Below the pieces are notes generated by a model. The model worked only from the letters and a program-made list of their open reading frames with translations, made no database searches and was not told where the DNA came from. DNA of 39,220 bases from IMG/VR virus record IMGVR_UViG_3300043445_000139, positions 1-39,220 of that record; one strand, written 5' to 3'. Each line of letters begins with the position of its first letter. Position 1 is the stretch's first letter. The DNA is from a virus. Below are positions 454-38,744 of this stretch, piece by piece. Position numbers and translations under genes: made by a program.

Positions 454-528
454 GGCACCGTAGCTCAGTGGTAGAGCAGGGGACTCATAAGCCCTTGGTC
501 GGGTGTTCAAATCACCCCGGTGCTACCA
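454..528 (+). tRNA. tRNA-Met (CAT anticodon)
   Basis: The sequence folds as a cloverleaf. The acceptor stem is GGCACCG (454-460) with CGGTGCT (518-524), the D arm GCTC/GAGC (463-477), the anticodon CAT (486-488) in loop CTCATAA, the T arm GGGTG/CACCC (501-517), and CCA is encoded at 526-528. The anticodon stem shows an A-G apposition (483/491) next to the loop. CAT can mean elongator Met, initiator Met or lysidine-modified Ile. The first acceptor pair can form as a G-U wobble, and I favour elongator Met. From base 484 onward the gene is the phage attachment core, so its 3' part is phage-supplied after integration. Confidence 0.93.
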
Positions 529-531
529 TCT
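484..531. repeat. attL core (48-bp direct repeat)
   Basis: The 48 bases from the anticodon loop of tRNA-Met through the encoded CCA plus three further bases recur exactly at 38545-38592. Identity stops at both sides (A483 against C38544; G532 against T38593). This is the usual pattern for a tyrosine integrase that uses a tRNA 3' end as attB and restores the gene. Confidence 0.95.
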
Positions 532-1714: not shown

Positions 1715-2863
1715 CTAGCCGAGCTGTCGTTCCATGGCCGCGGCGATTCGGTTGTCGTCGGCCGGGTCGGTCCAAAGGTGACCGTAGAGGTCCATGGTCA
1801 TCTGCAGCGACGCATGACCCATCAGGTGCTGCACCCGCTTGGGCATCAGCCCCTGCTCGATCCATAGGCTGGCAGCCGCGTGGCGCAGGGTATGCGGCGT
1901 GAAGATCGGCTTGCCCGTCGCCGCGACCAGCCCTGCCGTCTTCATCAGCGGCACCCACCAGCGGTGATAAACGTTGGCGTGGCTTTCGACGGTGCCGGCG
2001 CCGGTCGGAAAGACCAGGTGCAGGTCACTGACGGGTGCGTGCTTCAGCCAGTCCTTCAGGGCGCCGACGGCGCGGGGGCCGAGCGGCACGCGGCGCCGGC
2101 CGGCACGGGTCTTCGGCGCCTTGATGCTGCCGTACTGGTCGGCCGCCTGGCTGACGGTCAGGTTTGGGTGCGCGCCGTGCAGCACCAGCGCGCCGCGGGG
2201 CAGGCCGCGCAGCTCCCCCATGCGCAGCCCGCAATAGAGCATCAGCAGGACCATGGAAAGGCTGCGCCCGTGGTCATCGGCCTTGGCAGCCGCATCCACC
2301 AACGCCTTGAGATCGACCTTGGGCGGGATCTCCACCCTGCCCTCCTCGTCCCCGTCGCCCTCGATCCGGATCCCGTCGCCCGGGGAGCTGGCCAGCCACT
2401 CTCGACGCCGGCACCAGGACAGGGCCATCTTGACGGTCTTGAGCGCTTTGCGGGCCATATGGTCCGACAAAGCGAGCTGCAGGTCGGCGGCGAAGGCCTC
2501 CACGTCCGCGGGGCGAAGGCGGGTCAGCAGTACCTTGGCCAGCGGCCGGCCCTGCAGATGACAATCCAGGTGGGAGCGGTACTTGGCATAGGTGGCGCGG
2601 GCGCGCTTGCCGGCGCGGACCTTCAGCTCGAACTCATCCAGCCAAGCGTAGCAGCCTTCCTGGACCGTGCGGCTGGCGCGGTCCGGGACGTGGTTCCCCG
2701 TCTGGATCTGCCCCTCGATCCGGACTCTCTCCGTATCCGCGTCCCGCTTCAGGGTGAAGTTCTTGCGGTGCCGGTTGCCTTGAGAATCCACATAGGACAG
2801 CTGCCAGCGCTTTACGCTGGAGCCGTCCCTGCGGGTCCGTGTAATGGGGCGGACTGTAGCCAT
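1715..2863 (-). CDS. int: Tyrosine-recombinase integrase
   Basis: The 382-residue protein has all catalytic positions of the tyrosine recombinase family: Arg214 (CGLRMGEL), Lys251 in the beta-hairpin region, His324/Arg327 (HTLRH), His350 (LMGH) and Tyr360 (DLYGHL). The N-terminal part carries an arm-binding-like beta domain (residues 10-50) and a core-binding SAM-like domain (about 65-160). It would catalyse integration into and excision from the tRNA-Met core. No clear Shine-Dalgarno precedes the ATG. The bases just upstream repeat a GCTAC/GCTAT pentamer, partly like the boxes downstream. It lies at the end of the minus-strand early operon. Confidence 0.95.
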   Translation of the reverse strand: MATVRPITRTRRDGSSVKRWQLSYVDSQGNRHRKNFTLKRDADTERVRIEGQIQTGNHVPDRASRTVQEGCYAWLDEFELKVRAGKRARATYAKYRSHLDCHLQGRPLAKVLLTRLRPADVEAFAADLQLALSDHMARKALKTVKMALSWCRRREWLASSPGDGIRIEGDGDEEGRVEIPPKVDLKALVDAAAKADDHGRSLSMVLLMLYCGLRMGELRGLPRGALVLHGAHPNLTVSQAADQYGSIKAPKTRAGRRRVPLGPRAVGALKDWLKHAPVSDLHLVFPTGAGTVESHANVYHRWWVPLMKTAGLVAATGKPIFTPHTLRHAAASLWIEQGLMPKRVQHLMGHASLQMTMDLYGHLWTDPADDNRIAAAMERQLG

Positions 2864-3241: not shown

Positions 3242-4072
3242 TCACGGCCGCCAGAGCCCGCGGTGCTGGGCACCGTCAAGCACGGGTAGGGGTATGACCC
3301 GTGCCACATGCTTGGGGCTGGGCGCCTGCTTGAGGTAGAACGGAATCCTGCGCTCGGCACACCAGTCCCGGGTAGCGCGCGCCAGCTCCCCGAATTCCTC
3401 CGGGGTCATCGGGCGACCGGCGCCCTGCATGGCACCAAGGATCACCCATTCGGCGAAGTCCCAGCCGTCGACCCCACCAGGTCCCAGCGCGGGCTCATAG
3501 CTCACGCCGATCCGCCATCCGGCCTTGGCCAGCGCAGCAGCGGCCGGCAGCTTCTTCGAGGCCTCCCTCCCATTCTCCTGGCTGCTGAGTATGACCAGGT
3601 TCCGGGGCGGCCAGGTCAACGCGTGGTCCGACCGGAGGCCCCCGACCGCCCGGGCCAGGCGTGGCAGCGCTTCAACCACCCTGTGGGTCGGCAGGACATA
3701 CAGATGGGCAGGCGTTTCGGCCACCCGTCGCAGCACCTGGAACAGGCTGTCCAGCGGCACAGCGGAATGGAACAGGTCGCCGAGGTCGTTGAGGAACACC
3801 ACGCGCGGCTTCTTCCATCTGTCGACCACGTCCATCTCCTCAGGCCGCACGGCCAGCTCACCCGTCCAGACCAGCTGACCCGCATCCGTCTTGCGGGTAA
3901 GGCCCGGGTAACGGCCGAAGCGACCGACCAGCTCCTTCGCCCAGCAGCCCCCGCAGCCCGGGCCGTACGGGTCGCACCCCTTGACGGGGTTCAGGACAGC
4001 GGGGCTGGCCTGGTGCTGTAGCGCCAGGTCGACGATGAAGTTCACATTGCAGCGGCTGGCCATGATGGTCAT
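3242..4072 (-). CDS. DUF5131 (phage Gp37/Gp68 family) protein
   Basis: The 276-residue protein starts like the DUF5131 family: LNPVKGCDPYGPGCGGCWAK at residues 27-46, with a CX6CX2C cysteine cluster (Cys33, Cys40, Cys43) recalling the iron-sulphur triad of radical-SAM-related proteins. Downstream motifs RVVFLNDLGDLFH and a late WVILGAMQGAGRP also fit. The family is common in phages and mobile elements, and its reaction is not known to me. The ATG overlaps the primase stop, so it is co-translated with replication genes. A nucleic-acid-modifying or defence-related activity would be speculation. Confidence 0.8.
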   Translation of the reverse strand: MTIMASRCNVNFIVDLALQHQASPAVLNPVKGCDPYGPGCGGCWAKELVGRFGRYPGLTRKTDAGQLVWTGELAVRPEEMDVVDRWKKPRVVFLNDLGDLFHSAVPLDSLFQVLRRVAETPAHLYVLPTHRVVEALPRLARAVGGLRSDHALTWPPRNLVILSSQENGREASKKLPAAAALAKAGWRIGVSYEPALGPGGVDGWDFAEWVILGAMQGAGRPMTPEEFGELARATRDWCAERRIPFYLKQAPSPKHVARVIPLPVLDGAQHRGLWRP

Positions 4073-6741
4073 TCTGCCTTCTGACGGAAGACGTAGCAGC
4101 TGATGTTGCGACCGGCGAACCCCGGGTGGATCGAGCGGACGGTCTTGTAGTCAAGGAACTGACGGGACCTGCTGGATTTAAGGGTGCGCTTCAGTTCGAT
4201 CACCGGGGGCAGGGACTGCCCTGACTTGCTGGCCAGGTCGCACACGTGGTTCAGGTTGACCGCCACGTACCCTGGTTGAGAGATGTGGTTGCAGTTCTCG
4301 ACGCCGAGGTACTCGACGATGTCCCAGAACCGGTCGACGGTCGGATCGTCTTCGGCGATGGCGCCTTGGCGCTTCAGGGCGCCGGCACGCAAAAGGTTCA
4401 TCGCCTCAGCCAGCCAGGCAGCCGGCATGGCCGTCAACTGGGCCAGAGCTTCGACCAAGGCCATCAGCTGTGCGTGATTCTTCCGGATACGGACGGTTTT
4501 CAGCATGGGATTCCCAGCAAGCTCACGTTCGTGCACCGGGATCCGGTCAGCCATCATCTTCAAGACCATGGCCTCCTGCGTCGTCGCCATCAGCACGAAC
4601 CAGCTCATGGTCTCCACCGGCATGGTAGCCAGGGCATCCGCCGCGACCCTGCCCTCCTCTGTGTGCTCTGAAGTGTCGAAGTGGAGGTGGACGATACGCG
4701 TCATGATTGCTTCAGACGCCTTCACCTCGCTGTTCTGGGAGATGATCACCGACCCGCGGAACGGCGGCTCCTTGGTGTCGTTGCCGCCATTGGCCACACC
4801 GGTAGCGCGGCTCGGACGACCGTTGTAGGCGGTCTTGATTTCGTCCCAGTCGAACTGCCGCTGCTTGACACCATCGGACCCGTCACCACCGCGGTCGGAC
4901 TCGATGAAGACCACAGGTAGATTCCCTACCTGTGACATTATGCGGCTTCGAGCGGCCGACGTGGATTTGTTCGGATCGAAACCTTCGTAGTTGGTTCGTC
5001 CGACCAACTTCCAGAGGGCTTCGATCAGGGTGGTCTTTCCAGATCCTGCCTGACCAGACAGTTCTAGGAACGGGAAGCTCTGCTGCTGTTGCCTAATCTG
5101 CTCGGCGAACAGGGTTCCCAAGTAGAATGCGGCGGTCACTATGCCCTTTGCCCCGAAGCTACGGTACACAAGCTCTAGCCATTTATCAGAATACTGAGTC
5201 CTATTGCCGATGCGCAGCTGCAAGCTCGACGTCATAGACAGTGACTTGATTGAAAGACCCTGAACCTCAAAGAAGTCTTCTGAATTTAGTTCGTAAACTC
5301 GCCCTGCCGATACTGCGTGGCTATTGAACACCCACGTCTTGTATTCCGACGCATAGCCGACAAAGTCGATAGTCTGCACCTGCCTGATGCCGTCAATATT
5401 GTTCTTAACAATCCAGTTCAGCTGGTGTGTTGAACCTGTGAACAGCGCGCCCGGAGCAATACTGAGGAGGCGCTTCTTGAACTCAGCTGCGGCGGCAATA
5501 TGCGTTCCAGTAAATGTATCTTTTATCGGCTTGCGCTTATTGGGGAAGTCGATTTTGGAATAGTACCATGATTCTCCGACAAGTTCAGATTTTTGAAAGT
5601 AAAGGAAGCTTACCACAACATTGGCGATCTCCCGCACCTCGGCAGCGCGCTCCGCCGCTTCCGAGCTTATAGTCGCGTCGTCTTCGTTCGCAAAAGCAGG
5701 CTCTTCACGGACCGCCTTCTGAGCGAGCATGAAGCTCGCAGCCGGCAACTCAAACCAAAAGGTGCGCGCACCGTACTCCAGGGCGAAGGACGGGTTCCTC
5801 TTACGCTCCCAAATCAGAAGCGCCTTGGCGCGCGCGGTCGGCGCCAGCAGCAGAGATCCTTCGTGCCGGTACAGCTCCAAATCATCTTTGCTGAGCCCAC
5901 CAGACGCGTGGGCATCGTTCCAATCGAGCTTCTTGGTTCCGACCTGGGGAATCAGCGCGGCACTGCAGGTATAGCCCGCCTCACGAGCCGTCGCCACATG
6001 CTGCAAGATGCGGGAGCATCCCGCCACATCATTATCGAGCGCCCATACCAGACGGGGCCGGATACCCTTCTGACGCAGCGCATCGAGAGACACATCCGGG
6101 TAGTTGTAGCAGGACAGCGTTGCTACGGCCGGAACACCGTGCTGGTGCAGGCTGATTGCGTCGATGCAGCCTTCCACCAGCCAGATCTCCTGGCCGTCTG
6201 CCGGGGCGAAGCCAGGGGGGGCCCACCAGAGCCCCTTGTAGTCCCCGACGAAATTGGCCTTTCGGACTTCCGAATCGTCACCTGGCGGGGACACCGTCAC
6301 AGGCTCAACCAGGCGCTCCATCCACAGGTTCTTGTCCGGGGCGCGCGGGTCCATGATGTCGAAGACTACCGTCGCAGTGCGCCGGTTGCCGTAACGATGA
6401 CTGAAGCTACCCTGGCGGTACCAACCCCGGCAGGCCCTGATATCCAAGTGACGGACGAACAACAGATAGGCATCTGCTGTCGCGTTCGGATTATCTGTAG
6501 TAGCTGGGTACCGCTCATTCAGTTTTTCAAAGGCGTCTGGGTACAGTTCCTTTGTTGACGCCGACCAGCCGCACTTATTCTCGCGCCCACATTTCAGAAC
6601 GTTAGGCTGGGAAGTAGCAATAAACAACTCCCGCTCGCCGCACGCCGGGCATTTTCCGCCGCGAAGGTGGGCACCGCGAGCCTTCAATCCGTAGTCGCGC
6701 TTTAGGCGGCCAATCAGGTCCAGTCGCAGATCCTCCCGCAT
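4069..6741 (-). CDS. Phage primase-helicase (Zn finger, TOPRIM, ATPase)
   Basis: The 890-residue protein begins with a CHC2-type zinc-finger-like cluster (Cys31, Cys34, Cys51, Cys57). A TOPRIM domain follows, with Glu190 in LVEG and an ALDND acidic pair at 234-238. A P-loop ATPase lies further on (GQAGSGKT at 563-570; Walker B-like VVFIESD at 610-616). This order is that of phage primases carrying a DnaB/D5-like motor, which would prime and unwind phage DNA. There is no P2 gpA-type rolling-circle nickase in the window, so this is the likely replication protein. About 5090-5620 is visibly richer in A and T than the rest, which hints at mosaic ancestry. It overlaps both neighbours by 4 bases or fewer. 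Confidence 0.88.
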   Translation of the reverse strand: MREDLRLDLIGRLKRDYGLKARGAHLRGGKCPACGERELFIATSQPNVLKCGRENKCGWSASTKELYPDAFEKLNERYPATTDNPNATADAYLLFVRHLDIRACRGWYRQGSFSHRYGNRRTATVVFDIMDPRAPDKNLWMERLVEPVTVSPPGDDSEVRKANFVGDYKGLWWAPPGFAPADGQEIWLVEGCIDAISLHQHGVPAVATLSCYNYPDVSLDALRQKGIRPRLVWALDNDVAGCSRILQHVATAREAGYTCSAALIPQVGTKKLDWNDAHASGGLSKDDLELYRHEGSLLLAPTARAKALLIWERKRNPSFALEYGARTFWFELPAASFMLAQKAVREEPAFANEDDATISSEAAERAAEVREIANVVVSFLYFQKSELVGESWYYSKIDFPNKRKPIKDTFTGTHIAAAAEFKKRLLSIAPGALFTGSTHQLNWIVKNNIDGIRQVQTIDFVGYASEYKTWVFNSHAVSAGRVYELNSEDFFEVQGLSIKSLSMTSSLQLRIGNRTQYSDKWLELVYRSFGAKGIVTAAFYLGTLFAEQIRQQQQSFPFLELSGQAGSGKTTLIEALWKLVGRTNYEGFDPNKSTSAARSRIMSQVGNLPVVFIESDRGGDGSDGVKQRQFDWDEIKTAYNGRPSRATGVANGGNDTKEPPFRGSVIISQNSEVKASEAIMTRIVHLHFDTSEHTEEGRVAADALATMPVETMSWFVLMATTQEAMVLKMMADRIPVHERELAGNPMLKTVRIRKNHAQLMALVEALAQLTAMPAAWLAEAMNLLRAGALKRQGAIAEDDPTVDRFWDIVEYLGVENCNHISQPGYVAVNLNHVCDLASKSGQSLPPVIELKRTLKSSRSRQFLDYKTVRSIHPGFAGRNISCYVFRQKAE

Positions 6742-10840: not shown

Positions 10841-13800
10841 CCTCTGTCATAATGGGCCGACCGGCCCGCGGAAGCGGCCCGACGCTCCCGCTCATCCAGC
10901 TGCCGCGTGACTTCGCGGGCGATCTCCTGAGCCGTCATGCCCGGGGCAGCGTGAATTGTGATCTGGTAGGTGCTGTGGTGTTCGACAGGGTCTGCGGCCT
11001 GTGCCGCTGCTGCCGCAGCCGGGCTGTTTGCGGGATCCGGCACCTGCACCACCACCAGCGGCGGGGCAGATACCGCGTTGGTGTTCGACGGCGTTTCGAT
11101 CCCGATCGGCGGAAGGAGTTTGTCACGGGTGAGGACTGTTTGCGTCGGCAGGGGCCGTGCCTCCCCCGTCTGCGTCCCCGTCTTCGGGTCCGGCAGCGGA
11201 TTATCGTTGGTGACCACGGGCGGCGGCGCCAGGGGACCAGCTTCCGCCTTCTGCGCCCCTGTCTTCGGGTCCGGCAGCGGGTTATCGCTGGTGCCCACGG
11301 GCGGCGGCGCCAGGGGACCAGCTTCCGCCTTCTGCGTCCCCGTCTTCGGGTCCGGCAGCGGATCATCGTTGGTGACCACGGGCGGCGGCGCCAGGGGACC
11401 AGCTTCCGCCTTCTGCGCCCCCGTCTTCGGGTCCGGCAGCGGATTATCGTTGGTGACCACGGGCGGGGGAGGCATCGGCGGTCCTTCCTCCCCCCCGAAC
11501 ACACCGTTCCAGGATTCCCGGACCCACCCGATGACGCGGCCGATCTGGCCCATCATGCCATCGAAGGCGGACCACACGACGCCCACCAGGTCGAGCAGCA
11601 GCCTTAGCGGCGTAAGTGCCAGGTTGACGGCCCAGGCGATCCCCTGCCCCACGGCCATGCCGGCGGCGGCCACGCCCGACAGCTCCTCCCCCGTCATCGA
11701 CACAGGTGTCAGGAGGTCGCTGAAGACGCTGCCCACCCACCGGAACGCGCCGGCGATCGCGGCTCCGATCGGAGCGAGAGGGGCCAGTGACGTCTTGAGC
11801 GGAGCGAGCCCGGCCGTCAGCCCGTCCCAGAGCCCGCCGAAGAAGGCCTTCAGGGGCTGCCAATACCGGAAGATCAAGATGGCCGCCGTCGCGATGCCCG
11901 CGACGATCAGGCCTACCGGATTGGTCAACAGCGCGAGGGACATCGCCCGCGCTGCGGCCCCGACCAGCAGGAACAGACGGGGAAGCACCATCAGCCCGCT
12001 GCCCAACAGACGCAACCCGCCGATGGCGCCGGCTTTCCAGGCCGCGCCGCTGAACAGGGCGGCCCGGGCATTCACCAGCATGGCCATCGTATTGGCCCGC
12101 GCCGACGCTGTCGACGCCCATAGGGCGGCGGTTGCGGCCGCTATCCGACCGGGCAGGGCCAGCAGTCCACCGCCGGCGGCCGTCACCCATGCCCTGGCAG
12201 CGACCAGCGTGGCCTTGACCGATGCCCAGGTGGCCGTCGTCCAGGCGGCGATCGATGCGGTACTGGTGGACTGCCATAGCGCCTGGCCACGCAGTGCAGC
12301 GGTCTTCGCCACGGTGGCAACGGTGCCGGCATGTGTCGCCGCCGTGCCGGCGACGGTAGCCACACGCGCCTTAATGGCGGCACCTGTCAGCAGCTGCTGG
12401 GCGTGGCGGAGTAGCAGGGCGCCGCCGACCGCGAACGTCCAGCCGTAGCCGAGGGCGACCGCCGCGACCTTGAGAGCGATCAGCCCCGCGGCGGCGGTGA
12501 CGGCGAAGGTGGTCAAGCCCGGGAAGGTCTGGCTCAGCCACATGGCGCGGTCGGCAACAGCGGCCAGGCCCGACACCAGGATGTTGAGCGGCGGCAACAG
12601 AATCGTCCCCAGGGCAGCACCGACGTTGACCACCCTGTTGCGCAGGATCTGCATCTGCCCGGCGGATGAGGCGACAAAGCTCTCATACGAGTTGTCGACA
12701 ACGCCGCGGCTGCTGTTTGCAAGGTCCCGCTGAGCGGTGGCCAAGCCGCCGATGTTCTGACCCAGCAGCATCACCGCCTTGATGCCCTCATCCCCGAAGA
12801 CCTCCCGCAGCTTGTCGCGGAGATCCTGTTCCATGGTACCGCTGAAGCCGCCGATGGCGTCGGACATCGCCTGCATCGTGGCCGTGACGTCGAGCTGACC
12901 GTCTGCGGTCCGCACCAAATCGAAGCCGAATTCCTTCGAAGCCTTCGACAGTTGGGCCAGGGTGGCAGACAAGGCTGTACCAGCCTCAGACCCCTGGATG
13001 CCCGCTGTGTTCAGCGCACCCAGCAGGGCCAGCCCCTGTTCCAGCGCGATGTTGTTCCCGATCAGCGCGGGCGTGGCGGTCTTCATGCTTTCGCCGAGCT
13101 GCCCGAAATCGCGGATCTGGTACTGGAACTGGGTTTTGGTCAGGAGGTCAGCAATACGCTGCATCCGCTCTTCGCTTGTGCCGGCGAACTGCTTGCCCAT
13201 GTTGTTGAAAACGGTGGCCATGACCTCGCCGACCGCTTCGGGCGCGCCGGCGGTGACGGTCGCCACCTTTGCGACCATGCCGGCGGCGGCGGCGGAAACC
13301 GATGCCTCAATCCCGGCCGAGTTGAGGGCGTACTGGATGTCCAGAACCTGGTTGGTGCTGGCGAGACCGGACCGGCTGAACTGGATTGCCGCCTCTCGCG
13401 CCTCCACCATCGCCCGGGCGTGGGCCTGGGCCGCGGTCTCCCCCTGTTTGGCGGTGGCCATAATGACGGTACCCAGGCGCACTTGGGCAGATTCGAGCTG
13501 CACCGCGGCGGCGATCGGTGCGGCCAAGCTGAGCGCCAAAGCGGCGGCTTCGGTGACCTGTCCGCCCAGTTCCTCCCGTCGGGCGACGTTTGCTTGCCCA
13601 GCTGCACGCATATCGGCGGCGCGCTTCATTGCGGCGGCCTGCCGCTCGGCCGCTGCTGTCGCCGCGGCGATCTCCTGCTTAAGTCGCCGCTGCTCGCCGG
13701 CGAGGTCGCCCGTCTTGACACCGGCGGCGGTAAGCTGGCCGCGCATCTTCCGCAGCTCCGCCGATGCGCGTTCCTTGGCAGCGGCGGCCCGGCTCACCTC

Positions 13801-28365: not shown

Positions 28366-30135
28366 ATGAGCCAGACCCCCAGTGACCCCAGGCCCGATGA
28401 GCGCCAGCGCGCCAAGCTGTTGTATTGGCAGGGCCACCCCGTGGCGGAGGTGGCGCGTCTGCTGGCCCTGCCCTATGGCACGGTCGATGCGTGGAAGCGC
28501 CGCGACGGCTGGGACGACACCCCGGTGATCGGCCGGATCGAGGTGAGCGTCGAATGCCGGCTGATGGTGCTGGTGGCCAAGGGCGACAAGACCGAGGCGG
28601 ACCTGAAGGAGATCGAGCAGCTGGGGCGGGTGCTGGAGCGCACCGCCCGGGTGGAGCGGTATCAGGTCACCGGCAAGGAATCGGACCTCAACCCCGCCCG
28701 GAAGGGCAAGAAGGGGAAGAAGGAGCCGAAGAACGCGCTGACAGAAGACCAGATCCAGGCGCTGCGCGCGGACTTCCTGGGCAGCCTGTTCGAGTATCAG
28801 CGGGTGTGGTGGGAGAACCGGGATCAGCGGACCCGGAACATCCTGAAGAGCCGCCAGATCGGTGCCACGTGGTATTTCGCCCGTGAGGCATTCGTCAACG
28901 CGCTGGAGACCGGCGACAATCAGATTTTCCTGTCCGCGTCACGCAACCAGGCAGAAATCTTCCGGCAGTACATCGTCAAATGGGTGATGGAGGTTACGGG
29001 CGTCGAGCTGAAGGGCACGCCGCTGATCCTGCCCAACGGCGCGCACATCTACTTTCTGGCCACCAGCAGCAAGACGGCCCAGGGCTATCACGGTCACGTC
29101 TACCTGGACGAATATGCCTGGATCTCCAAGTTCCGCCAGTTCAAGAAGGTGGCCAGCGGCATGGCCACCCACAAGCGCTGGCGGAAGACCTTCTTCTCAA
29201 CCCCGTCCGTCATCAATCACGAGGCCTACGGCTTCTGGTCGGGTGAAGAGTTTAACCGGGGCCGGTCGAAGGAAGACCGGGTCGAGATCGAGGTCAGCCA
29301 TGCGGCCGTCAGGGACGGGCGCCTGTGCGAGGACGGGCAGTGGCGCCACCTGGTCACGATCAGGGATGCGGCTGCCCAGGGCTGCGATCTGTTCGACATC
29401 GAGGAGCTGGTCCGCGAGTACGCCGACGCGGATTTCAAAAACCTGTTCATGGGCGAATGGGTCGACGACAGCCAGTCATTCTTCACGTTCGGGGAGCTCC
29501 AGGCGGCCGGTGTCGACGCGCTGGAAGAGTGGTGGGACGTGAAGCCCTACGAGCAGCGGCCCTATGCCGGGCCGGTCTGGATCGGCTATGACCCCAGCCG
29601 GACCCGGGACAGCGCCTGCATCACGGTGGTGGCCCCGCCAGCGCCCGGCAGCAACCGGACCCGGTATCGGGTGCTGGAGCGCATCGCCCTGAAGGGCAGC
29701 GACTTCAACGCCCAGTCCGAGGCGATCCGGGCCCTTACGCAGCGCTACAGCGTGCAGCACATGGCGGTGGACTGCACCGGCATCGGCGCAGGTGTGTATG
29801 AGATGGTCAAGACTTGGTGGCCGGCCGTCCGGGCCATCACCTACAGCGTCGAGACCAAGAGCCGAATGGTGCTGAAAGCCAAGCACCTGTTCGCCCGCAA
29901 GCTGATCGAGTTCGACGCGGGCATGACAGACATCATCAGCGCCTTCCTGTCGATCCGGAAGACCATGACGACCAGCGGCCGGCAGCAGACCTTCGCCGCC
30001 GGCCGGTCGGAGGAGACGGGTCACGCCGATGTCGCCTGGGCGATCATGCACGCGCTCGACCGGGTGGAATTCCGAGACCTGGACACCGATACGCCGGCGC
30101 CGCAGGGCCGGACCATCCTGGAGTTTTTCGAATGA
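28366..30135 (+). CDS. P: Terminase large subunit gpP
   Basis: A 589-residue packaging motor. The N-terminal HTH (RAKLLYWQGHPVAEVARLLA to VDAWKRRDGW) is followed by the ATPase domain with a variant Walker A KSRQIGATW (161-169) and Walker B VYLDEYAW (245 onwards). The C-terminal nuclease fold starts IGYDPSRTRDSACITVV. ATG 28366 gives the usual P2 gpP start; an ATG 20 codons earlier is less likely. It cuts and pumps DNA into proheads. The stop overlaps the Q start. Confidence 0.95.
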   Translation: MSQTPSDPRPDERQRAKLLYWQGHPVAEVARLLALPYGTVDAWKRRDGWDDTPVIGRIEVSVECRLMVLVAKGDKTEADLKEIEQLGRVLERTARVERYQVTGKESDLNPARKGKKGKKEPKNALTEDQIQALRADFLGSLFEYQRVWWENRDQRTRNILKSRQIGATWYFAREAFVNALETGDNQIFLSASRNQAEIFRQYIVKWVMEVTGVELKGTPLILPNGAHIYFLATSSKTAQGYHGHVYLDEYAWISKFRQFKKVASGMATHKRWRKTFFSTPSVINHEAYGFWSGEEFNRGRSKEDRVEIEVSHAAVRDGRLCEDGQWRHLVTIRDAAAQGCDLFDIEELVREYADADFKNLFMGEWVDDSQSFFTFGELQAAGVDALEEWWDVKPYEQRPYAGPVWIGYDPSRTRDSACITVVAPPAPGSNRTRYRVLERIALKGSDFNAQSEAIRALTQRYSVQHMAVDCTGIGAGVYEMVKTWWPAVRAITYSVETKSRMVLKAKHLFARKLIEFDAGMTDIISAFLSIRKTMTTSGRQQTFAAGRSEETGHADVAWAIMHALDRVEFRDLDTDTPAPQGRTILEFFE

Positions 30136-31163
30136 CAGCAGCCGAAACAGCCGAGATCGCGCACGCAGTCCCCAGCGCGCGCACCGCGACCGAGCCCATG
30201 GTCTTCGCCTTCGGGGATCCTGAGCCGGTGCTGGACGGGCGTGGACTGGCCGATTACTACCAGAGCCTTTTCAACGGGTCCTGGTACGAGTGGCCGGTTG
30301 CGCCGCAGGGACTGGCCAAGGCCCTGGTGGCCAACGTCCACCACGAGTCGGCGATCCGCCTGAAGGCCAATATCCTGTCGGGGTGCTTCGTGCCGCACCG
30401 TCTGCTGACCCGCGAGCGGTTCAAGCGCCTGGCGCTGGACTATTTGGTGTTCGGCAATGCTTGGCTGGAGAAGCGCAACAGCTGGCTGGGCAGCCCCCTG
30501 GAGCTGCGGCCGACGCAGGCCAAGCATACCCGCCGCACGGCGGACGGGGAGGCCCTGATGCTGATCGACGGCAACGAACACCGCTTCGCGGCCGGGACCA
30601 CCCTGCACCTGGCGGAACCTGACATCAATCAGGAGGTCTACGGCGTTCCGGCCTACCTGTCGGCACTGCAGAGCGCGCTGTTGAACGAGGCTGCGACCCT
30701 GTTCCGGCGCAAGTACTACAAGAATGGCAGCCACGCGGGGTTCATCCTCTACCTCACCGACGCCGCCCAGACCCAGGAAGACGTCGATGCGCTGCGGGAC
30801 GCCCTGAAATCCGCGAAGGGCCCCGGAAACTTCCGGAACCTGTTCATGTATGCTCCCAACGGCAAGGCCGATGGCCTGAAGCTGATCCCGGTCAGCGAGG
30901 TGGCGGCGAAGGATGAGTTCCTCTCGATCAAGACCGTTACCCGCGACGACGTGCTGGCCTCCCACCGGGTGCCGCCGCAGCTGCTGGGCGTCGTGCCCAG
31001 CAACACGGGCGGGTTCGGAGACATCGAGAAGGCGGCGGGGGTATTCGCTGTCAACGAACTGGCCCCACTGAAGGCGACCTTCAGCCAGATCAACGATTGG
31101 GTGGGGGAGGAGGTGGTACGGTTCACGCCCTACAGCGTGACCCCGCCAGGACCCGTCGCCTGA
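30132..31163 (+). CDS. Q: Portal protein gpQ
   Basis: A 343-residue P2-type portal. Recognisable blocks are FAFGDPEPVLDGRGLADYYQ, YEWPVAPQGLAKALVANVHHESAI, LDYLVFGNAWLEKRNSWLG, EPDINQEVYGVPAYLSALQSALLNEAATLFRRKYY and HRVPPQLLGVVPSNTGGFGD. Twelve copies form the DNA gate of the head. ATG overlaps the P stop. It is the last gene of the short plus-strand operon and ends 5 bases from the end of hicB, which runs towards it. Confidence 0.96.
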   Translation: MTAAETAEIAHAVPSARTATEPMVFAFGDPEPVLDGRGLADYYQSLFNGSWYEWPVAPQGLAKALVANVHHESAIRLKANILSGCFVPHRLLTRERFKRLALDYLVFGNAWLEKRNSWLGSPLELRPTQAKHTRRTADGEALMLIDGNEHRFAAGTTLHLAEPDINQEVYGVPAYLSALQSALLNEAATLFRRKYYKNGSHAGFILYLTDAAQTQEDVDALRDALKSAKGPGNFRNLFMYAPNGKADGLKLIPVSEVAAKDEFLSIKTVTRDDVLASHRVPPQLLGVVPSNTGGFGDIEKAAGVFAVNELAPLKATFSQINDWVGEEVVRFTPYSVTPPGPVA

Positions 31164-31167
31164 TGCG

Positions 31168-31563
31168 TCATGGACCGGCGATCTCACGCCGGACGGCGAC
31201 GGCCAGCAGGGCGGAGCGGCTGGTCTGGCGGCGCTTCACTTCCCGATCGAGGAGGGCCAGAAGCCCCTCCTCCATGCTGATGTTGACGCGGACGGCTTTG
31301 CCGGGGAGGTCGGCCCGGACCAGGATACGGGCGAACTCTTCCACGTCCGGATCCCGCTCGACCTTATCCAGGGGCGTGGGCACGGGCAGGTCGGTCCCAT
31401 CCTCCACCATGCCGGCGATATGGTAGGCCAGGACCTGCTCGGCGGCGGCAGCCAAGATCTCCATCGTCTCCCCATGGCTCACACAGCCCGGCACGTCAGG
31501 GAAGCTGGCATAGAAGCCGTCGGAGGATTTTTCGACGATGGCGGGGAAGTAGCGGGTGGGCAT
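31168..31563 (-). CDS. hicB: HicB-family antitoxin
   Basis: A 131-residue antitoxin. The N-terminal half is the HicB partial RNase H-like fold (YFPAIVEKSSDGFYASFPDVPGCVSHGETMEILAAAAEQVL). The C-terminal domain is a ribbon-helix-helix (VRVNISMEEGLLALLDREVKRR then SRSALLAVAVRREI). It would bind and block HicA and repress the operon through two palindromes at 31824-31882. It lies downstream of hicA, the common order. Confidence 0.93.
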   Translation of the reverse strand: MPTRYFPAIVEKSSDGFYASFPDVPGCVSHGETMEILAAAAEQVLAYHIAGMVEDGTDLPVPTPLDKVERDPDVEEFARILVRADLPGKAVRVNISMEEGLLALLDREVKRRQTSRSALLAVAVRREIAGP

Positions 31564-31602: not shown

Positions 31603-31803
31603 CTATCGCAGCCGGACCCCGGACTGGGCTTCTATGCTTTTCAGCGTCCCTATGGGCAGGTCGTTCCGGGGGTGGGGAACAGTGACCTTCCCTGGCCTGT
31701 CCGGATGGCGGAAGTGGAGGTGGCTGCCGGTCTGACCGACCTGGTACCACCCGGCGGCCTTCAGAGTCCGGATCACTTCCTTGCTGCCGACCGTCTTGCC
31801 CAT
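31603..31803 (-). CDS. hicA: HicA-family mRNA interferase toxin
   Basis: A 66-residue toxin with the double-stranded RNA-binding-like HicA fold: KEVIRTLKAAGWYQVGQTGSHLHFRHPDRPGKVTVPHP then LPIGTLKSIEAQSG. His in GSHLHF is the expected catalytic residue. HicA toxins cut mRNA to stop growth. The ATG at 31803 is used rather than an upstream frame that runs through the operator. The pair may stabilise the prophage or act against other phages. Confidence 0.93.
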   Translation of the reverse strand: MGKTVGSKEVIRTLKAAGWYQVGQTGSHLHFRHPDRPGKVTVPHPRNDLPIGTLKSIEAQSGVRLR

Positions 31804-31823
31804 CGTCGCCCCCGCCGCTGATG

Positions 31824-31882
31824 TGTGTATGAATACACAAGCTTGCACCCGCGGTCAAGTAGAATTGTGTAGTCGCACACAA
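31824..31882 (-). promoter_or_regulatory. hicAB promoter with two palindromic operators
   Basis: TGTGTAT-GA-ATACACA (31824-31839) is a perfect inverted repeat. TGTGTAGTCGCACACA (31866-31881) shares the outer arms TGTGTA/ACACA, starting 42 bp away (four helical turns). On the minus strand TTGACC (31857-31852) could be a -35, with TATTCA (31835-31830) as a poor -10 inside the first operator. This fits HicB autorepression. Confidence 0.7.
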
Positions 31883-32445: not shown

Positions 32446-32871
32446 CTAATCCTGCTGCTGCGCGATGGACTTGGCCAGCTCGTACAGCCGCTGCCGCACC
32501 TCATCCGGCAGCACCTGGTAGACGCGGACCATGGAGAGCACCTGGCGGCTCAGGAGCGGTTGCTCCTCACCCTGCGGGCTGTCCGGGGCCACGCCGTCGA
32601 AGAAGAATCCCACGGGCACATCAAGCGACTGGGCAAGCTGGAACAGCCGGCTGGCGCTGATCCGGTTGGCCCCGCGCTCGTACTTCTGGAGCTGCTGGTA
32701 GGTCAGGCCCAGGGAGCCGGACAGAACGTCCAGCGACAGGCCCAGAAGGGTACGGCGCAATCGAATCCGCGATCCGACGTGCATATCGATGGGGTCGGGA
32801 CCCTGGCCCCGCTTGGTGATGGTGATGGTGGCGGGGCGCAGGGGCGCGCGCGTGGACCGTCTCGGCATCAT
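32446..32871 (-). CDS. XRE-family transcriptional regulator
   Basis: A 141-residue regulator. After a basic N-terminal arm, residues about 32-92 form an XRE helix-turn-helix (GSRIRLRRTLLGLSLDVLSG, LTYQQLQKYERGANRISASRLFQLAQSLDV) and continue PVGFFFDG. The C-terminal part is helical. This type is frequent in alphaproteobacterial chromosomes and mobile elements. It may control the cargo operon in which it lies. It is separate from the CI/Cro switch at the other end of the element. Confidence 0.85.
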   Translation of the reverse strand: MMPRRSTRAPLRPATITITKRGQGPDPIDMHVGSRIRLRRTLLGLSLDVLSGSLGLTYQQLQKYERGANRISASRLFQLAQSLDVPVGFFFDGVAPDSPQGEEQPLLSRQVLSMVRVYQVLPDEVRQRLYELAKSIAQQQD

Positions 32872-32917
32872 GATTCCTATGTCACTGAAACCGCGAATGC
32901 GGCGGATGGGTGGGTGT

Positions 32918-33355
32918 TCAGGCGACGGAGTTTCCGTCGCCGGCGCCGCGGGCGTCCAGAGCACTCTGCCAGACCGCATCCATGGCGGTCGGGTCGGCCC
33001 GGTCGCTGCAGGCGCGGAGATCGGCCCGCAGGGTGGCCACCAGGCCCGGGGCGGACGCAGCAAGCTCCAGATCCCCGATGGCGGCGAGCGCGCGGCGGTA
33101 GGCGAAGCCCAGGGCTGCCGGATCGCCCCGCCGGGCGGCACGCCGCCGCAGCACGATGCCCACAGCATCCCGAAGCAGCAGGACGTTGGAAAGCGGCCAG
33201 CTCGATGCCTGTGTCGGCCGCCGGGTGGGCCCCAGGGGCAGATCACGATCCAAGCGCCGGCCGATGGCCAGATCCAGGGGGGATGTCTGGTCATTGACCG
33301 GCACCAGCGGCAGGGCCGCCCCGGTGACGATAAGGGGCATGGCATCAGCGCGCAT
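32918..33355 (-). CDS. Hypothetical protein
   Basis: A 145-residue protein, strand-rich at first (MPLIVTGAALPLVPVNDQTS) and then helical (SNVLLLRDAVGIVLRRRAARRGDPAALGFAYRRALAAIGDLELAAS). There are no signal peptide or membrane helices and no known motif. The start overlaps the upstream gene by 11 bases. An ATG five codons later is also possible. Confidence 0.6.
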   Translation of the reverse strand: MRADAMPLIVTGAALPLVPVNDQTSPLDLAIGRRLDRDLPLGPTRRPTQASSWPLSNVLLLRDAVGIVLRRRAARRGDPAALGFAYRRALAAIGDLELAASAPGLVATLRADLRACSDRADPTAMDAVWQSALDARGAGDGNSVA

Positions 33356-33742: not shown

Positions 33743-33904
33743 ATGGCGCGCACAAACCCCCTAGGCGTCCGCGTAGAGCCTGAAATCAAGGCAGCCTTGG
33801 AGAAGGCCGCCAAGGACGATGACCGCTCGGTGTCATCGCTGGTCGAGCGCATCCTGAAGCACTGGCTGATGGAAAAGGGCTATCTGCCGGGCGGGGGGCA
33901 GTGA
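33743..33904 (+). CDS. Small ribbon-helix-helix regulator (Arc/CopG-like)
   Basis: A 53-residue protein. NPLGVRVEPEIKAALEKAAK DDDRSVSSLVERILKHWLM contains the strand-helix-helix pattern of Arc/CopG-type repressors. The ATG at 33743 lies 11 bases past the right arm of the inverted repeat; the longer upstream frame crosses the promoter. It most likely represses its own promoter and the divergent operon. It has no adjacent toxin, so a role as an orphan antitoxin is unsupported. Confidence 0.8.
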   Translation: MARTNPLGVRVEPEIKAALEKAAKDDDRSVSSLVERILKHWLMEKGYLPGGGQ

Positions 33905-33950: not shown

Positions 33951-33979
33951 TTGCGTCGAAATCCACGAACCGACATAGT
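33951..33979 (+). promoter_or_regulatory. Probable promoter of the WYL membrane gene
   Basis: TTGCGT (33951-33956), a 17-base spacer and CATAGT (33974-33979) form a fair sigma-70-like promoter. A perfect palindrome ATTGCGCAAT lies just upstream. Directly downstream CCCCCG (33981-33986) and CGGGGG (33995-34000) pair around an 8-base loop that takes in the G-rich ribosome-binding region of the gene. Confidence 0.55.
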
Positions 33980-34006
33980 CCCCCCGTACGCAACCGGGGG
34001 AACGGT

Positions 34007-35461
34007 ATGTCGGGGCGCAGGCCTACCAGCTTCGAAGCGCTGCGCAAGCAGCAGGGTCTGACTGAACAGGACCTCCGCGGGCTTCATGTCACGCTTCGAT
34101 ATGTGGATGGGGCCGGGAAGGCCACGGAGAGACCGGTCACCCTTCTGGAGTATGAACTGAAGGGGGCGAAGCCGGCCCTGTTCGCCAAGTGCCATATGCG
34201 CCGCGCCGGCCGCAGTTTCCTCGTCGATCGCATTGCAGAGGTGATCGACGACGACGGGGAGACGATCGATATCCGCGTCCTGCTGGCCCTGTTCGGTGTC
34301 GACGTGCCGCCCCCCGTACTCCAGGCACAGCGGACCCGGATTGCCCCGCCCCAGCCCGATCGTCAGGTCGTGCCGCAGGGCAGGAACAAGCCGGACCGTG
34401 CAGCTGTGAGGGCGATGCTCAAGGCGGCTGCCCGCAGACGGACACCATACGTGCCCGGCGCAGATCAGCAGCCAACGCCAACGGCAACGCCGGTCGCGGC
34501 TGCAGAGCCGTCCCCCGCCCAACCGCCGGAACCCGCCGCGGCCGATCAGCAGTCGGCACCAATCCGACAGGATATGCCCAAGTGGTTTGGGTGGCTGGCG
34601 ACGACGCTCCTGCTCTCCCTCATCGCGGGACTGTTGGACGGGCGGGCGGCAGCCGCGAGCGTGATGTTGATCATCCTGATGATCTTCACGGTGATCGGCC
34701 TGGTAAGGCCAGGCCCCGTCGGCATGCCGTCGCGGGGGCGGGTGGGGTTGGTGGCCATCATCGGCTTCGCCTTGGCCGTGATCGTCGGCCCGGGGCCGAG
34801 CGGAGACGCAGCGCAGGATCAGCAGGAGCCGGTCGCGGCGAGCAGCCTGCCTGAGACACGGCCGGGGCCATCCGCGGCCGATCCGGCCCAGACACCGGCC
34901 CAGGCGCCCCAGCGGCAGGTGTGGCCGCTGAGCCCCGATAAGGTGGCCGCCGGGATCCTCACCCTGATCGAGCCGGCGGTAGGCCAGCCGGACAACCTGG
35001 CGACCCTGTACTGCGAGTATGTCCGCCGGCGCGAAGCGACCCGGTCACGGATCCTGCGCAGCCTCCCCGGATTCGTGCATGAGGCGCTGGTTCCTGGGGA
35101 CCAGCTCACCTTGACCCACGAGCTGGCCGTTGTGAACGGCTTCGAGCGCGAGGATATCGCCGGCGGGTTCCGGGTGCAGCCGGGGCAGAGCATCAAGATC
35201 CTGGAGAGCCTGCGGGACAGCCAGGGCCGGCTGCATTACCGGGTCGAGTTTGTCCTCATCGACGGGTATGTGCAGGCCGTTCAGCTCCAGCGGGAGTTCA
35301 GCGTGGACGACCTGCGGGCCTACCAGGCTGCCATTCGGGCCGGCGAAGAGGCCGCAGTCGCCCAGATCGAGGCGGAGACCGCAGCAGCAGCGGGCCACCC
35401 CCTGCCCGAGCTGACCGCCATGGCCCGTGAGGCCGGTTGGTCGGCCGCCTGTAGGCGATAG
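34007..35461 (+). CDS. WYL-like domain protein with three membrane helices
   Basis: A 484-residue protein. Residues 26-90 read like a WYL ligand-sensing domain (VTLRYVDGAGKATERPVTLLEYELKG, LFAKCHMRRAGRSFLVDRIAEVID). A Pro/Ala-rich linker leads to three membrane helices (about 192-210, 216-233, 244-261). A second Pro/Gln-rich linker leads to a C-terminal domain (310-460) with GQSIKILESLRDSQGRLHYRVEFVLIDGYV, which looks SH3-like. With three helices the ends lie on opposite sides, so the C-terminus may be periplasmic. WYL domains usually sense nucleic acids or nucleotides in regulators, and some are tied to phage defence. It is a single-gene plus-strand cargo unit; function unknown. Confidence 0.65.
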   Translation: MSGRRPTSFEALRKQQGLTEQDLRGLHVTLRYVDGAGKATERPVTLLEYELKGAKPALFAKCHMRRAGRSFLVDRIAEVIDDDGETIDIRVLLALFGVDVPPPVLQAQRTRIAPPQPDRQVVPQGRNKPDRAAVRAMLKAAARRRTPYVPGADQQPTPTATPVAAAEPSPAQPPEPAAADQQSAPIRQDMPKWFGWLATTLLLSLIAGLLDGRAAAASVMLIILMIFTVIGLVRPGPVGMPSRGRVGLVAIIGFALAVIVGPGPSGDAAQDQQEPVAASSLPETRPGPSAADPAQTPAQAPQRQVWPLSPDKVAAGILTLIEPAVGQPDNLATLYCEYVRRREATRSRILRSLPGFVHEALVPGDQLTLTHELAVVNGFEREDIAGGFRVQPGQSIKILESLRDSQGRLHYRVEFVLIDGYVQAVQLQREFSVDDLRAYQAAIRAGEEAAVAQIEAETAAAAGHPLPELTAMAREAGWSAACRR

Positions 35462-35917: not shown

Positions 35918-36350
35918 CGGCCTGGCCCTCCCTGAACCTCCGGATGATGGGTGCCAAACGGCCCGGACTGCCCCCTCCCAGCTCCCGCCGCAGCTCCCGG
36001 ACGGATAGCCGGCCGGCCTCATCCAGCCGAGCACAGGCGAGCAGCACGGTCGCCGTGTCGCTGACCGGGGGCCGGCCCCCAGTGTTACGAAACCAGGGGT
36101 CCTGACGGTCGGTTTCGTAACAGTCGTCAGTACCAACGGTCAGGTCGATGAACGGCGCGAAGGAGCAATCCCGTGTGGCTCCGATCAGCCGCTGCAGCGC
36201 CGCACACAGTGCCTCATGCCCCTCCGGCCGTTCCTCGTTCAGGACGATGGCGAAGGCGGCAAGCTCCGCAAGCGGCCCGCCCAGCAGGCAGGTGTCATCG
36301 GGCGCCAGGAGTTGGTGACCGACCGCACGGTAGCTGACCATCGCCCTCAC
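35907..36350 (-). CDS. Hypothetical protein downstream of the methyltransferase
   Basis: A 147-residue soluble protein. Its first part, VSYRAVGHQLLAPDDTCLLGGPLAELAAFAIVLNEE, is mixed strand and helix. The end, LSVRELRRELGGGSPGRLAPIIRRFREG, is basic and helical. The start overlaps the methyltransferase stop by 4 bases, so the two are co-translated. It has no nuclease motif and cannot be called a restriction partner. Confidence 0.6.
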   Translation of the reverse strand: MRAMVSYRAVGHQLLAPDDTCLLGGPLAELAAFAIVLNEERPEGHEALCAALQRLIGATRDCSFAPFIDLTVGTDDCYETDRQDPWFRNTGGRPPVSDTATVLLACARLDEAGRLSVRELRRELGGGSPGRLAPIIRRFREGQADGA

Positions 36351-38461
36351 TCCGCCGCTACGGCCAAGGTGTGTGTAGGGTTGCAGTTCATCAGCACCTC
36401 CGGCATGCCCGAAGGGACCGAGTTGCCGATCAGCCGCATTCCCTCAGACTTCGTCAGCGGTCTCCAGTGCCAGACGGGCTTGCCCGCAGCGTCGAAGATG
36501 GTCGCGCCCTTTCGGTCCTTCTTCTGGACCCAGATCCGCGCCGGCAGCTCCAGCCAATGTGCCGCCGCGGCCTCCGCAGGGCTCAGCATGCGCATTCCAA
36601 TATCGGCGACGACCCAGGTCCGGCCGTCGATCGCGAGGGTGACGATGTCGCCGCCGGACCAAGCGCCGTAGGCGCGCAGGAAATCGGCCACCTGTCGGGC
36701 CCGGGCGAGCTGCGGGCCGGTCAGCGGCGCGCAGAGCTGGGCGCCCGTGACCATGGTCCGGTCCCGAGTGGACTGGGTCGCCAAGGGGTCATCGACAGCG
36801 TCATGCTGCCCTCCTGTGCTGTACTGGTGGTGCAGGAAGGCGCAGGTCACAGCCTCATGGTGCCCGCCCGCCGTCTGGGTGCCGAGCGGTTCCGCCACAT
36901 CGGCGGCGGTGGCCGTGCCCCGCAGCTCCGTCAGGTAGGCCCCGGCGACCTGCTGCTGGGTGATGCGGGTCGTCATCGTGCTGACCGGCTCGTCCGCCCG
37001 GTTGCCGACCGTGCCGCCGTTGTGCTGCACCATCCACGCGCCGATGAGGCCGTGATGCTCCCGTTGGGTCTGGGTGGCGAGCGGGTCGCTTGCCGCCTGG
37101 CCAACGCTGCGGCTGCGCAGCTCCGTGAGGTGGGCAGCGACCACGCACCGGTCCTCCTTCGTGGTGGTCGTATTCAGCGGGCCCGCGATGTCCATCGGCG
37201 GGACCTGGGCGGCCCTTCCGCCTGCGCCGACAATGGTGGCCGCCATCACCGCCAGCTCCCCGCCCTTGACTCCCGCCGTCAACGTCGGAACCGGCCCCTG
37301 GCCACCATGGACACGGGGCGGGCTGGCGCTGTGCGTGGTTGGCACCAGCGCCGGGCCGCAGACGGCCAGCTCTCCCCGGTGGGCGGCCGTGATCGTGGGC
37401 AGGGGGCCAGCCATATCCACCGGAGGCCGCTGTCCGTGGTGGGTGATGTGGACGATGTAGGGTGACGCCGACTCAAGGACGTAGCGGCGCATTCCGACAG
37501 CCACGCGACGAAGGGTCGCCTGGGCCAGGGGGCGGGCTCGGTCAAAGATCGAGGGGAGCGGCAAACTCCAATCGATAACCTCGGCGGCGGCCCTGTGGGG
37601 CAACAGCTTGCCGGCCAGGACGTCTGGGTGTGTCCGGGGAGCATGGGTGCGCACTGGCCAGGCGGGACGGCGGCCGCCGAATAGGCCGACACCGAACAGC
37701 CGTTTGCGTGACGTTGGCATACCGTAATCTGCGCAGTTGAGGTCCCGGTCCTCCCAGGTACACCCGAGCCGCTGCATGTGCCGAACCCAGGCCCGGTACC
37801 GGGTCCCGGCATGGCGCGGGTCGCGCACCAACTGCTGCTGCTGGACTGGCACCCGTTCACCTGGCGCGGCGATGCTCCCGTCAAGCTTCACGACGCGCTT
37901 GGTGACGGGGTCGCGCTTGGCGACCAATCTCCCCCAGCCGCGGATTTCCCGCACATTCTCAAGCGTGACGATCCGCGGTCCCAGACCGCGCTTACGCAGC
38001 CGGCCCACCCATCGGCAGACTTGCCAGGGCATGGACCTGACCCTGGGCGAACGCGGGGCCCCCCCCTTTGCAACAGAGTGGTCGCGGCAATCCGGGCTGG
38101 CATGGAGCACGTTCACCTCGCGCCCGCCGGTTGCATCCAACGGGCATACCTCATAGATGTCGGCATGAAGGTGGCGCGTGTGGGGATTCATGGCTCGATG
38201 AGCCGCGATCGCCACGCTGTCATGATTCACAGCGATGTGAACGGGATACCCCGCCTTCTCCAAGCCCTTGCACCAGCCTCCCATGCCGGCGAAGAGCACC
38301 ACATTTATGGCGCCATCAAGGGGCCAGGGTTCGGCAGCCGATGTGCCCGGCAACGGCCGGGGCGCCCGGGGCTGGCGAAACCTCCGAACCTCTGGAAGAT
38401 CGAACAGCGTGTCTGCCACCGGTGCGATGACAGGCTTGCCGGATTGCGTATCGGGTGTCAT
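36347..38461 (-). CDS. DNA cytosine-C5 methyltransferase with expanded repeat region
   Basis: A protein of about 704 residues. Numbered from an upstream in-frame GTG (38491), it has motif I FAGMGG (67-72), motif IV SPDC with catalytic Cys135, motif VI ENV (178-180), motif VIII DYGMPTSRKRLFGVGL, motif IX RMLSPAEAAAAHWLELP and motif X RLIGNSVPSGMPEVL. The part between VIII and IX is about 360 residues and holds seven repeats. I prefer ATG 38461 because AGAAGG lies upstream. SPDC replaces the usual PPCQ, as in a known phage-borne branch. No restriction enzyme is adjacent, so it probably masks phage DNA or marks host DNA. Confidence 0.92.
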   Translation of the reverse strand: MTPDTQSGKPVIAPVADTLFDLPEVRRFRQPRAPRPLPGTSAAEPWPLDGAINVVLFAGMGGWCKGLEKAGYPVHIAVNHDSVAIAAHRAMNPHTRHLHADIYEVCPLDATGGREVNVLHASPDCRDHSVAKGGAPRSPRVRSMPWQVCRWVGRLRKRGLGPRIVTLENVREIRGWGRLVAKRDPVTKRVVKLDGSIAAPGERVPVQQQQLVRDPRHAGTRYRAWVRHMQRLGCTWEDRDLNCADYGMPTSRKRLFGVGLFGGRRPAWPVRTHAPRTHPDVLAGKLLPHRAAAEVIDWSLPLPSIFDRARPLAQATLRRVAVGMRRYVLESASPYIVHITHHGQRPPVDMAGPLPTITAAHRGELAVCGPALVPTTHSASPPRVHGGQGPVPTLTAGVKGGELAVMAATIVGAGGRAAQVPPMDIAGPLNTTTTKEDRCVVAAHLTELRSRSVGQAASDPLATQTQREHHGLIGAWMVQHNGGTVGNRADEPVSTMTTRITQQQVAGAYLTELRGTATAADVAEPLGTQTAGGHHEAVTCAFLHHQYSTGGQHDAVDDPLATQSTRDRTMVTGAQLCAPLTGPQLARARQVADFLRAYGAWSGGDIVTLAIDGRTWVVADIGMRMLSPAEAAAAHWLELPARIWVQKKDRKGATIFDAAGKPVWHWRPLTKSEGMRLIGNSVPSGMPEVLMNCNPTHTLAVAAE
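36749..37408. repeat. Seven PxxTxT coding repeats in the methyltransferase
   Basis: A unit beginning [G/D/E]P[L/V]xTxT recurs at residues 362, 399, 437, 469, 501, 534 and 568 (numbered from the GTG), 32-38 residues apart: GPLPTIT, GPVPTLT, GPLNTTT, DPLATQT, EPVSTMT, EPLGTQT, DPLATQS. Between some are matching strands such as GAYLTELRG/AAHLTELRS. Confidence 0.85.
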
Positions 38462-38544
38462 GTAGCTGAGGCCCTTCTGGGTTCGTGTCACCCAGATGGC
38501 ACCCGGTGGTGCTAAGGCCTTGATTCCACTTCGACCAAGATGCC

Positions 38545-38592
38545 CTCATAAGCCCTTGGTCGGGTGTTCAAATCACCCCGGTGCTACCATCT
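38545..38592. repeat. attR core (48-bp direct repeat)
   Basis: An exact copy of 484-531, the 3' part of the tRNA-Met gene displaced by integration. It lacks the 5' half of the tRNA, so it is not a functional tRNA. Host DNA begins after it. Confidence 0.95.
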
Positions 38593-38650: not shown

Positions 38651-38690
38651 TTTCGGATCAGGCCTCGGATCGGCCCGACGCCCGTTCCCC

Positions 38691-38744
38691 ACTATCATCC
38701 GGGATCATCCACTATCATCCGGGATCATCCGGGATCATCCGGGA
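38691..38744. repeat. 10-bp tandem repeat in the host flank
   Basis: Five consecutive decamers of the form ACTATCATCC or GGGATCATCC start at 38691, 38701, 38711, 38721 and 38731, then decay at GGGACC. It lies between attR and the chemotaxis gene and is outside the prophage. Function unknown; probable simple-sequence expansion. Confidence 0.85.

Follow-up and report, generated by a model that had tools for sequence, protein, structure and literature searches.

Membrane-tethered WYL proteins recur beside phage repressors and integrases: a WYL protein with predicted membrane helices from the cargo region of a P2-like prophage

To our knowledge, WYL domains are known almost only from transcription factors and a few enzymes. 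PafBC, CapW, BrxR, DriD and the YafY family are cytosolic transcription factors built as HTH-WYL(-WCX). A soluble nucleotide sensor that acts on membrane helices is familiar from other families, namely the CARF-TM proteins (e.g., Cam1) and the CBASS TM effectors Cap14 and Cap15. In the accessible parts of the literature, the WYL pocket is described as having conserved basic residues and frequently a Cys, and the fusions on record join the domain to nucleases, helicases, BRCT and TerB, a membrane-associated form being mentioned there only for CARF (PMC4012209). From similarly partial texts, ssDNA activates PafBC and the R211A/R214A exchange in PafB abolishes ssDNA binding (PMC11804915), the WYL arginines R464, R491, R495, R498 and R501 of DdPif1 are proposed to hold ssDNA (PMC9964779), and the Trp of the WYL motif has been linked to contact with the HTH part (PMC9122588). 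A literature search of openly accessible text, subscription journals lying outside its coverage, returned no description of a WYL domain fused to membrane helices, and membrane-tethered WYL proteins seem undescribed so far.

The protein that we describe here is encoded on IMG/VR record IMGVR_UViG_3300043445_000139, whose 39,220-nt stretch (the window) represents a whole, intact P2-like prophage. A 48-nt repeat (attL, 484..531, + strand) overlaps a tRNA-Met gene (454-528) and returns as an identical copy at the other end (attR, 38545..38592, +), and PHROG assignments cover an integrase (1715..2863, - strand, phrog_1, E=3.9e-55), a primase, a gpD-type tail protein, sheath, capsid, terminase and portal. 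The cargo region begins at the frame with the gpQ-like portal protein (29814..31163, +; matching phrog_68 from aa 121 onwards), and the WYL gene sits between the end of this frame and attR, outside the structural genes, in agreement with the preliminary description, which had placed it in a P2-like cargo region. In P2, the tract past the portal gene and cos carries old and tin. This portal-adjacent tract and the cI-integrase gap of P2-related phages are antiviral hotspots according to the available text (PMC9122126). Besides the WYL gene, the cargo region holds HicA/HicB, XRE, RHH, KfrA_N-like (below cut-off) and cytosine methyltransferase genes. HicB (31171-31563, -) and HicA (31606-31848, -), both above the Pfam cut-off, lie directly past the portal gene, and the 714-aa cytosine-5 methyltransferase (36350-38491, -), whose catalytic parts are separated by a long repeat-like stretch, lies at the attR end. 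An XRE-type HTH protein, our candidate for the prophage repressor, is encoded at 32446..32787 (-), as the C-terminal part of a 299-aa frame (32446-33345) with an estimated start.

The WYL gene (34007..35461, +) is an open ATG frame of 484 codons. Its codon usage scores +0.30 bits per codon in frame (other five frames, -0.56 to +0.06) and +0.46 over the C-terminal part, the linker by itself being neutral; this is a real gene, with a coding signal intact over its 484 codons. It had been taken for a lone plus-strand gene with its own promoter. The former is inexact, as a co-directional gene for a 53-aa ribbon-helix-helix protein (RHH_1/CopG by Pfam; 33743..33904, +) ends 102 bp upstream and is a possible operon partner or regulator, and the latter found no support in a sigma-70 promoter scan (0 sites). 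A perfect 8-nt inverted repeat (33970-33977 and 34006-34013) stands either side of the start codon, in a stretch with slightly more 8-nt repeats than expected (3, a number reached in 3% of shuffles); this could be an operator, perhaps one bound by the RHH protein of the upstream gene.

The N-terminal part, aa 20-95 (34064..34291, +), is a WYL barrel of Sm/SH3 type by AlphaFold, Foldseek, profile and alignment. Library matches are weak alone: Pfam WYL (PF13280) gives 17.6 bits (E=0.0039), below its cut-off of 21.8, and the PHROG match is to a family of unknown function (PHROG 6785, E=6e-6). Several relatives score above the Pfam cut-off, and a profile of five relatives from which the query was left out finds the 484-aa protein at 51.2 bits (E=4.6e-13 for 100,000 sequences), the best of 4000 shuffled copies reaching 11.5 bits with the same profile. 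A profile search of the PDB with alignment A1 returned PafBC (2e-8), PafC (1.3e-5), the WYL-Pif1 helicase (1.9e-4) and CapW (3.3e-4) as the four best matches. The AlphaFold model, made from an input alignment of ten sequences, shows five strands in aa 20-95 with blocks of pLDDT 81-95, and the 24 best Foldseek rows for this barrel are all WYL regulators (PafBC, BrxR, CapW, DriD). Superposition on ssDNA-bound CapW (2.5 A over 63 residues) and on PafBC (2.1 A over 63) gives a VIA Z of 8.3 in both cases, barely above the level of common chance arrangements and therefore weighed jointly with the sequence evidence. The BFVD structure search listed phage proteins named WYL among its first rows and singled out no membrane relative. 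Once the relatives are included, the WYL identity of the N-terminal domain is firm, and the WYL pattern that the preliminary description had read there, as well as the comparison with WYL folds that it had proposed, is borne out by the relatives' profile and by a predicted fold matching PafBC, CapW and BrxR.

Eight of the nine key pocket residues are kept (Y32, R42, C62, R65, R69, F71, D74, R75), among them the basic residues and the Cys typical of the domain (R42, C62, R65, R69, R75). The exception is L72, at a position held by Arg in 18 of the 23 other aligned sequences (DdPif1 included). By alignment, DdPif1 R464, R491, R495 and R501 correspond to R42, R65, R69 and R75, and R498 to Leu72, which in our own mapping by motif spacing also falls on PafB R211. 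Since Leu72 replaces an ssDNA-contact arginine and PafB R211A/R214A loses binding, this copy may bind ssDNA weakly or bind another ligand. The protein shares the barrel fold and most pocket residues with PafBC, CapW, BrxR, DriD and the YafY family, but differs from these cytosolic regulators in having a membrane partner and neither HTH nor WCX parts: the WYL domain starts at about aa 20, domain-library searches gave no HTH match, and the alignment has no Trp where the domain's eponymous one would stand. We infer that the sensor face was retained and that the HTH link is dispensable in this protein. A response to phage nucleic acid would be compatible with the published ssDNA role of WYL domains and with the conservation of eight of the nine residues.

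The barrel is followed by a Pro/Ala-rich, basic linker (aa 96-189; 34292..34573, +) with 12 K+R versus 7 D+E over aa 101-191, mostly disordered, as had been proposed (block pLDDT 37-64 over aa 111-190). Three predicted membrane helices then lie at aa 190-210, 214-233 and 242-260 (34574..34786, +). The number three, also claimed beforehand, stands by AlphaFold and by alignment with the helices of a homologue in which all three exceed 1.8 on the Kyte-Doolittle scale, although the scale flags only two in the 484-aa protein itself (>1.6), the first helix (193-211) peaking at 1.54. This homologue is encoded on a P2-like phage fragment (L070, IMGVR_UViG_3300000504_000041), where two tandem WYL-linker-3TM paralogues lie downstream of an XRE gene. 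The first has good WYL features and matches the 484-aa protein by BLASTP at E=2e-8 over aa 10-260; the second (3647-4513) keeps the three helices and has lost most WYL pocket residues, and is possibly a dominant-negative or decoy copy. By reading, L070 also carries gpD-like, gpU-like and HicB-like genes, the last beside gpD. It thus has the same WYL-linker-3TM plan, in a P2-like phage and with an XRE repressor gene close by, but its proteins end after helix 3, and it differs by the tandem arrangement with a degenerate second pocket.

Helices 2 and 3 are joined by a loop (aa 235-246) with two R and no acidic residue, and an acidic segment follows helix 3; from this loop charge, an N-in/C-out topology is predicted. 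The C-terminal region (aa 261-484; 34787..35458, +) would by the positive-inside rule lie outside the cytoplasm. It had no relative in the viral_contigs, phage and genome searches run and no confident fold (mean pLDDT 56, best structural match Z 4.8, a model that excludes no family), so that the SH3-like end suggested earlier is not supported. Three candidate relatives of this region (L017-L019, E 0.001-0.01, in 3 of 82 genomes) were rejected, two by eye lying in a low-complexity frame without recognizable protein character and one being sensor-kinase-like, likewise by eye. Such a topology, with about 220 residues outside, suits a constitutive entry exclusion protein, whose membrane and periplasmic parts would block DNA injection by related phages and whose barrel would be only a cytoplasmic anchor or bind the incoming DNA end; small membrane proteins are common among phage exclusion proteins. 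We nevertheless regard this as quite unlikely, as the L070 homologue stops right after helix 3 without an outer part, and the mostly kept WYL pocket would be unneeded in an inert anchor.

Single-sequence searches confirmed none of the candidate stretches in viral_contigs (0/5 for the whole protein, 0/11 for the N-terminus, 0/10 for the C-terminus) and none of 100 in genome_contigs; tblastn of the 484-aa protein against phages and plasmids and megablast of window positions 15000-39220 against phages found no relatives. A family-level sample of 82 genomes from a host-like family, placed through a tRNA identical to that of a Rhodospirillaceae MAG, yielded eight genomes with any match to the whole protein at E<=0.01, four of which encode proteins of WYL-TerB type whose similarity falls within aa 19-142 (best E=9e-12). 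Weak genome matches beyond the WYL domain (aa 124-335) look like chance similarity of proline/alanine-rich or TM segments and were left uncounted. Seven IMG/VR contigs (L064-L069, L071) carry WYL domains outside membranes. These WYL-TerB-type proteins of alphaproteobacterial prophages, a fusion already in the literature (PMC4012209, available text), have the closest barrels (33-39% in alignment A6), but lack membrane helices, having in their place a helical part that is of TerB type or unassigned; among the six WYL contigs scanned for TerB, three matched at E <1e-4 and one more weakly.

Membrane-associated WYL proteins of other layouts were found in named phages. Gene 002 of Yersinia phage vB_YenM_201.16 (UNA05945.1, annotated as hypothetical protein) encodes 3 TM + WYL (Pfam 29.1 bits) and lies between cI and the integrase, all on one strand, and BCZ75814.1 of Acetobacter phage phiAP1 (annotated as WYL domain protein), with XRE genes nearby, has 2 TM (by eye) + WYL. 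Both combine membrane helices and WYL by the lysogeny switch, but unlike our protein they have the TM part first and no large C-terminal part. Stenotrophomonas phage Stm18 encodes a WYL-only protein of 69 aa (L074, 1495-1704; Pfam 25.1 bits) just upstream of the primase gene, and similar sequences occur in further Stenotrophomonas and Xanthomonas phages. Surveys of the host's class and phylum gave WYL matches, mostly of HTH-WYL size, in 70 of 385 (E<=1e-6) and 78 of 398 genomes (E<=1e-7), respectively. Among the best 60 loci (30 per search, at least four genes being included twice), nine show, on the Kyte-Doolittle scale, TM segments separate from the WYL domain (L036, L042, L043, L047, L077, L081, L085, L086, L087); L037 and L044/L082, whose TM segments lie only upstream of the likely start, were not counted. 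L086 (in a longer stretch, L109) has an extra BRCT domain (Pfam 31.1 bits). The WYL-then-TM architecture was found only in L070 (two genes, one contig) and, more loosely, in L081 (WYL then 2 TM).

Genes for membrane-tethered WYL proteins recur near the repressors and integrases of phages. Of nine TM-WYL genes, five (L107, L109, L111, L112, L114) have a phrog_4 repressor or phrog_1 integrase within 5 kb, and of 20 WYL controls none has one among the matches listed (Fisher p=0.001), a count that may overlook weaker integrases close to controls; L108, L110 (a 7-kb contig), L113 and L115 had neither among these matches. With the phrog_4 repressor alone, for which the list is complete, the counts within 5 kb are 4/9 and 0/20 (p=0.005). 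Distances were taken by eye from two tables, and the controls, WYL genes without extra TM segments chosen down the survey list, read as HTH-WYL in 19 of 20 cases (L120 has an N-terminal WYL). A version with P2 seeds in phmmer gave 3/9 versus 0/20 (p=0.023); it rests on the remaining seeds because the gpD and CI window seeds were out of frame, and the PHROG version is preferred. With so small a sample, and with cases taken from the top of the profiles, the second of which contains membrane-type members, this establishes an association rather than universality. The gene orders are int / 3TM-WYL / CI / CII in L107 and repressor, 3TM-WYL-BRCT, gpD, gpU in L109; the Yersinia phage and a P2-like prophage have their 3TM-WYL gene between repressor and integrase.

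Such neighborhoods could speak for a sensor of the lysogenic state, the barrel sensing ssDNA from damage or replication and steering maintenance or induction of its own prophage via the membrane or by sequestering a regulator. Adjacency to CI/XRE repressors is repeated, with the 3TM-WYL gene on the same strand as, and nearly abutting, the repressor in the Yersinia phage, L107 and L109. The gene studied here has RHH and XRE genes in its vicinity, and the WYL proteins PafBC and DriD sense DNA damage, according to partially available sources. This explanation appears unlikely to us, given that the 484-aa protein is without a DNA-binding domain, that a membrane anchor is odd for a switch regulator, and that TM-WYL proteins differ greatly in what else they carry (nothing, BRCT, a TerB-like part by eye, an orphan region), as one would sooner expect of cargo than of a conserved part of the switch. 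A similarly low probability is given to a lysogenic-conversion or drifting gene outside phage conflict, e.g., a host stress or envelope factor: L108 and L115 lie amid genes that read as host genes, the tandem L070 paralogue is without most pocket residues and the 484-aa protein itself has Leu72, but the coding signal is intact over 484 codons and TM-WYL genes are associated with phage switches.

We therefore prefer, tentatively and at somewhat less than an even chance, to see the 484-aa protein as a sensor of nucleic acids in the inner membrane that serves superinfection exclusion or abortive infection. As a prophage cargo (moron) protein made during lysogeny, it would hold the WYL barrel at the host's inner membrane, on the cytoplasmic side, where, by analogy with its family, the barrel might bind ssDNA or a different nucleic acid arising from a phage that enters or replicates. 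This could alter the membrane part, causing a leak, depolarization or blocked DNA entry, and the superinfecting phage would be excluded or the infected cell sacrificed, as the hotspot setting and the analogy to sensor-TM effectors suggest; the C-terminal region, in the periplasm, may set target or timing. The plan of a sensor on membrane helices resembles that of CARF-TM and CBASS TM effectors, but their sensor domain is unrelated and our gene has no recognized adjoining signal-producing enzyme. PADLOC-DB 2.0.0 returned only weak WYL matches for the protein (E 0.0045 and 0.013). A broader view, possible but doubtful, is that membrane-tethered WYL proteins form a modular, unrecognized family of single-gene phage immune effectors, in which a sensor of ssDNA or phage nucleic acid would be wired to a membrane effector, kept by the lysogeny switch in P2-like phages and other temperate ones and furnished with exchangeable extras (none, BRCT, TerB-like, periplasmic region). 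If true, this recurrent arrangement would provide phages with a switch leading straight from nucleic acid to membrane, no second messenger being needed. Membrane-tethered WYL sensors by the viral on/off switch may be candidates for virus-against-virus defence, and their genes are small, easily cloned test cases, one of them in a named phage, vB_YenM_201.16.

The ends of the prophage and its tail module show some further features. A ParA-like ATPase frame (685-1341, -; by eye, no PHROG match at 1e-8) adjoins attL. Immediately past attR, the host DNA has short tandem direct repeats (38689-38738), beyond which a minus-strand frame, with no Pfam match at E 0.01, resembles by eye the last part of a chemotaxis receptor. 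Direct repeats at 81-nt spacing lie at 11110-11514, four 162-nt windows being 69-85% alike, within a 1111-aa frame upstream of gpD that is probably the tape-measure gene.
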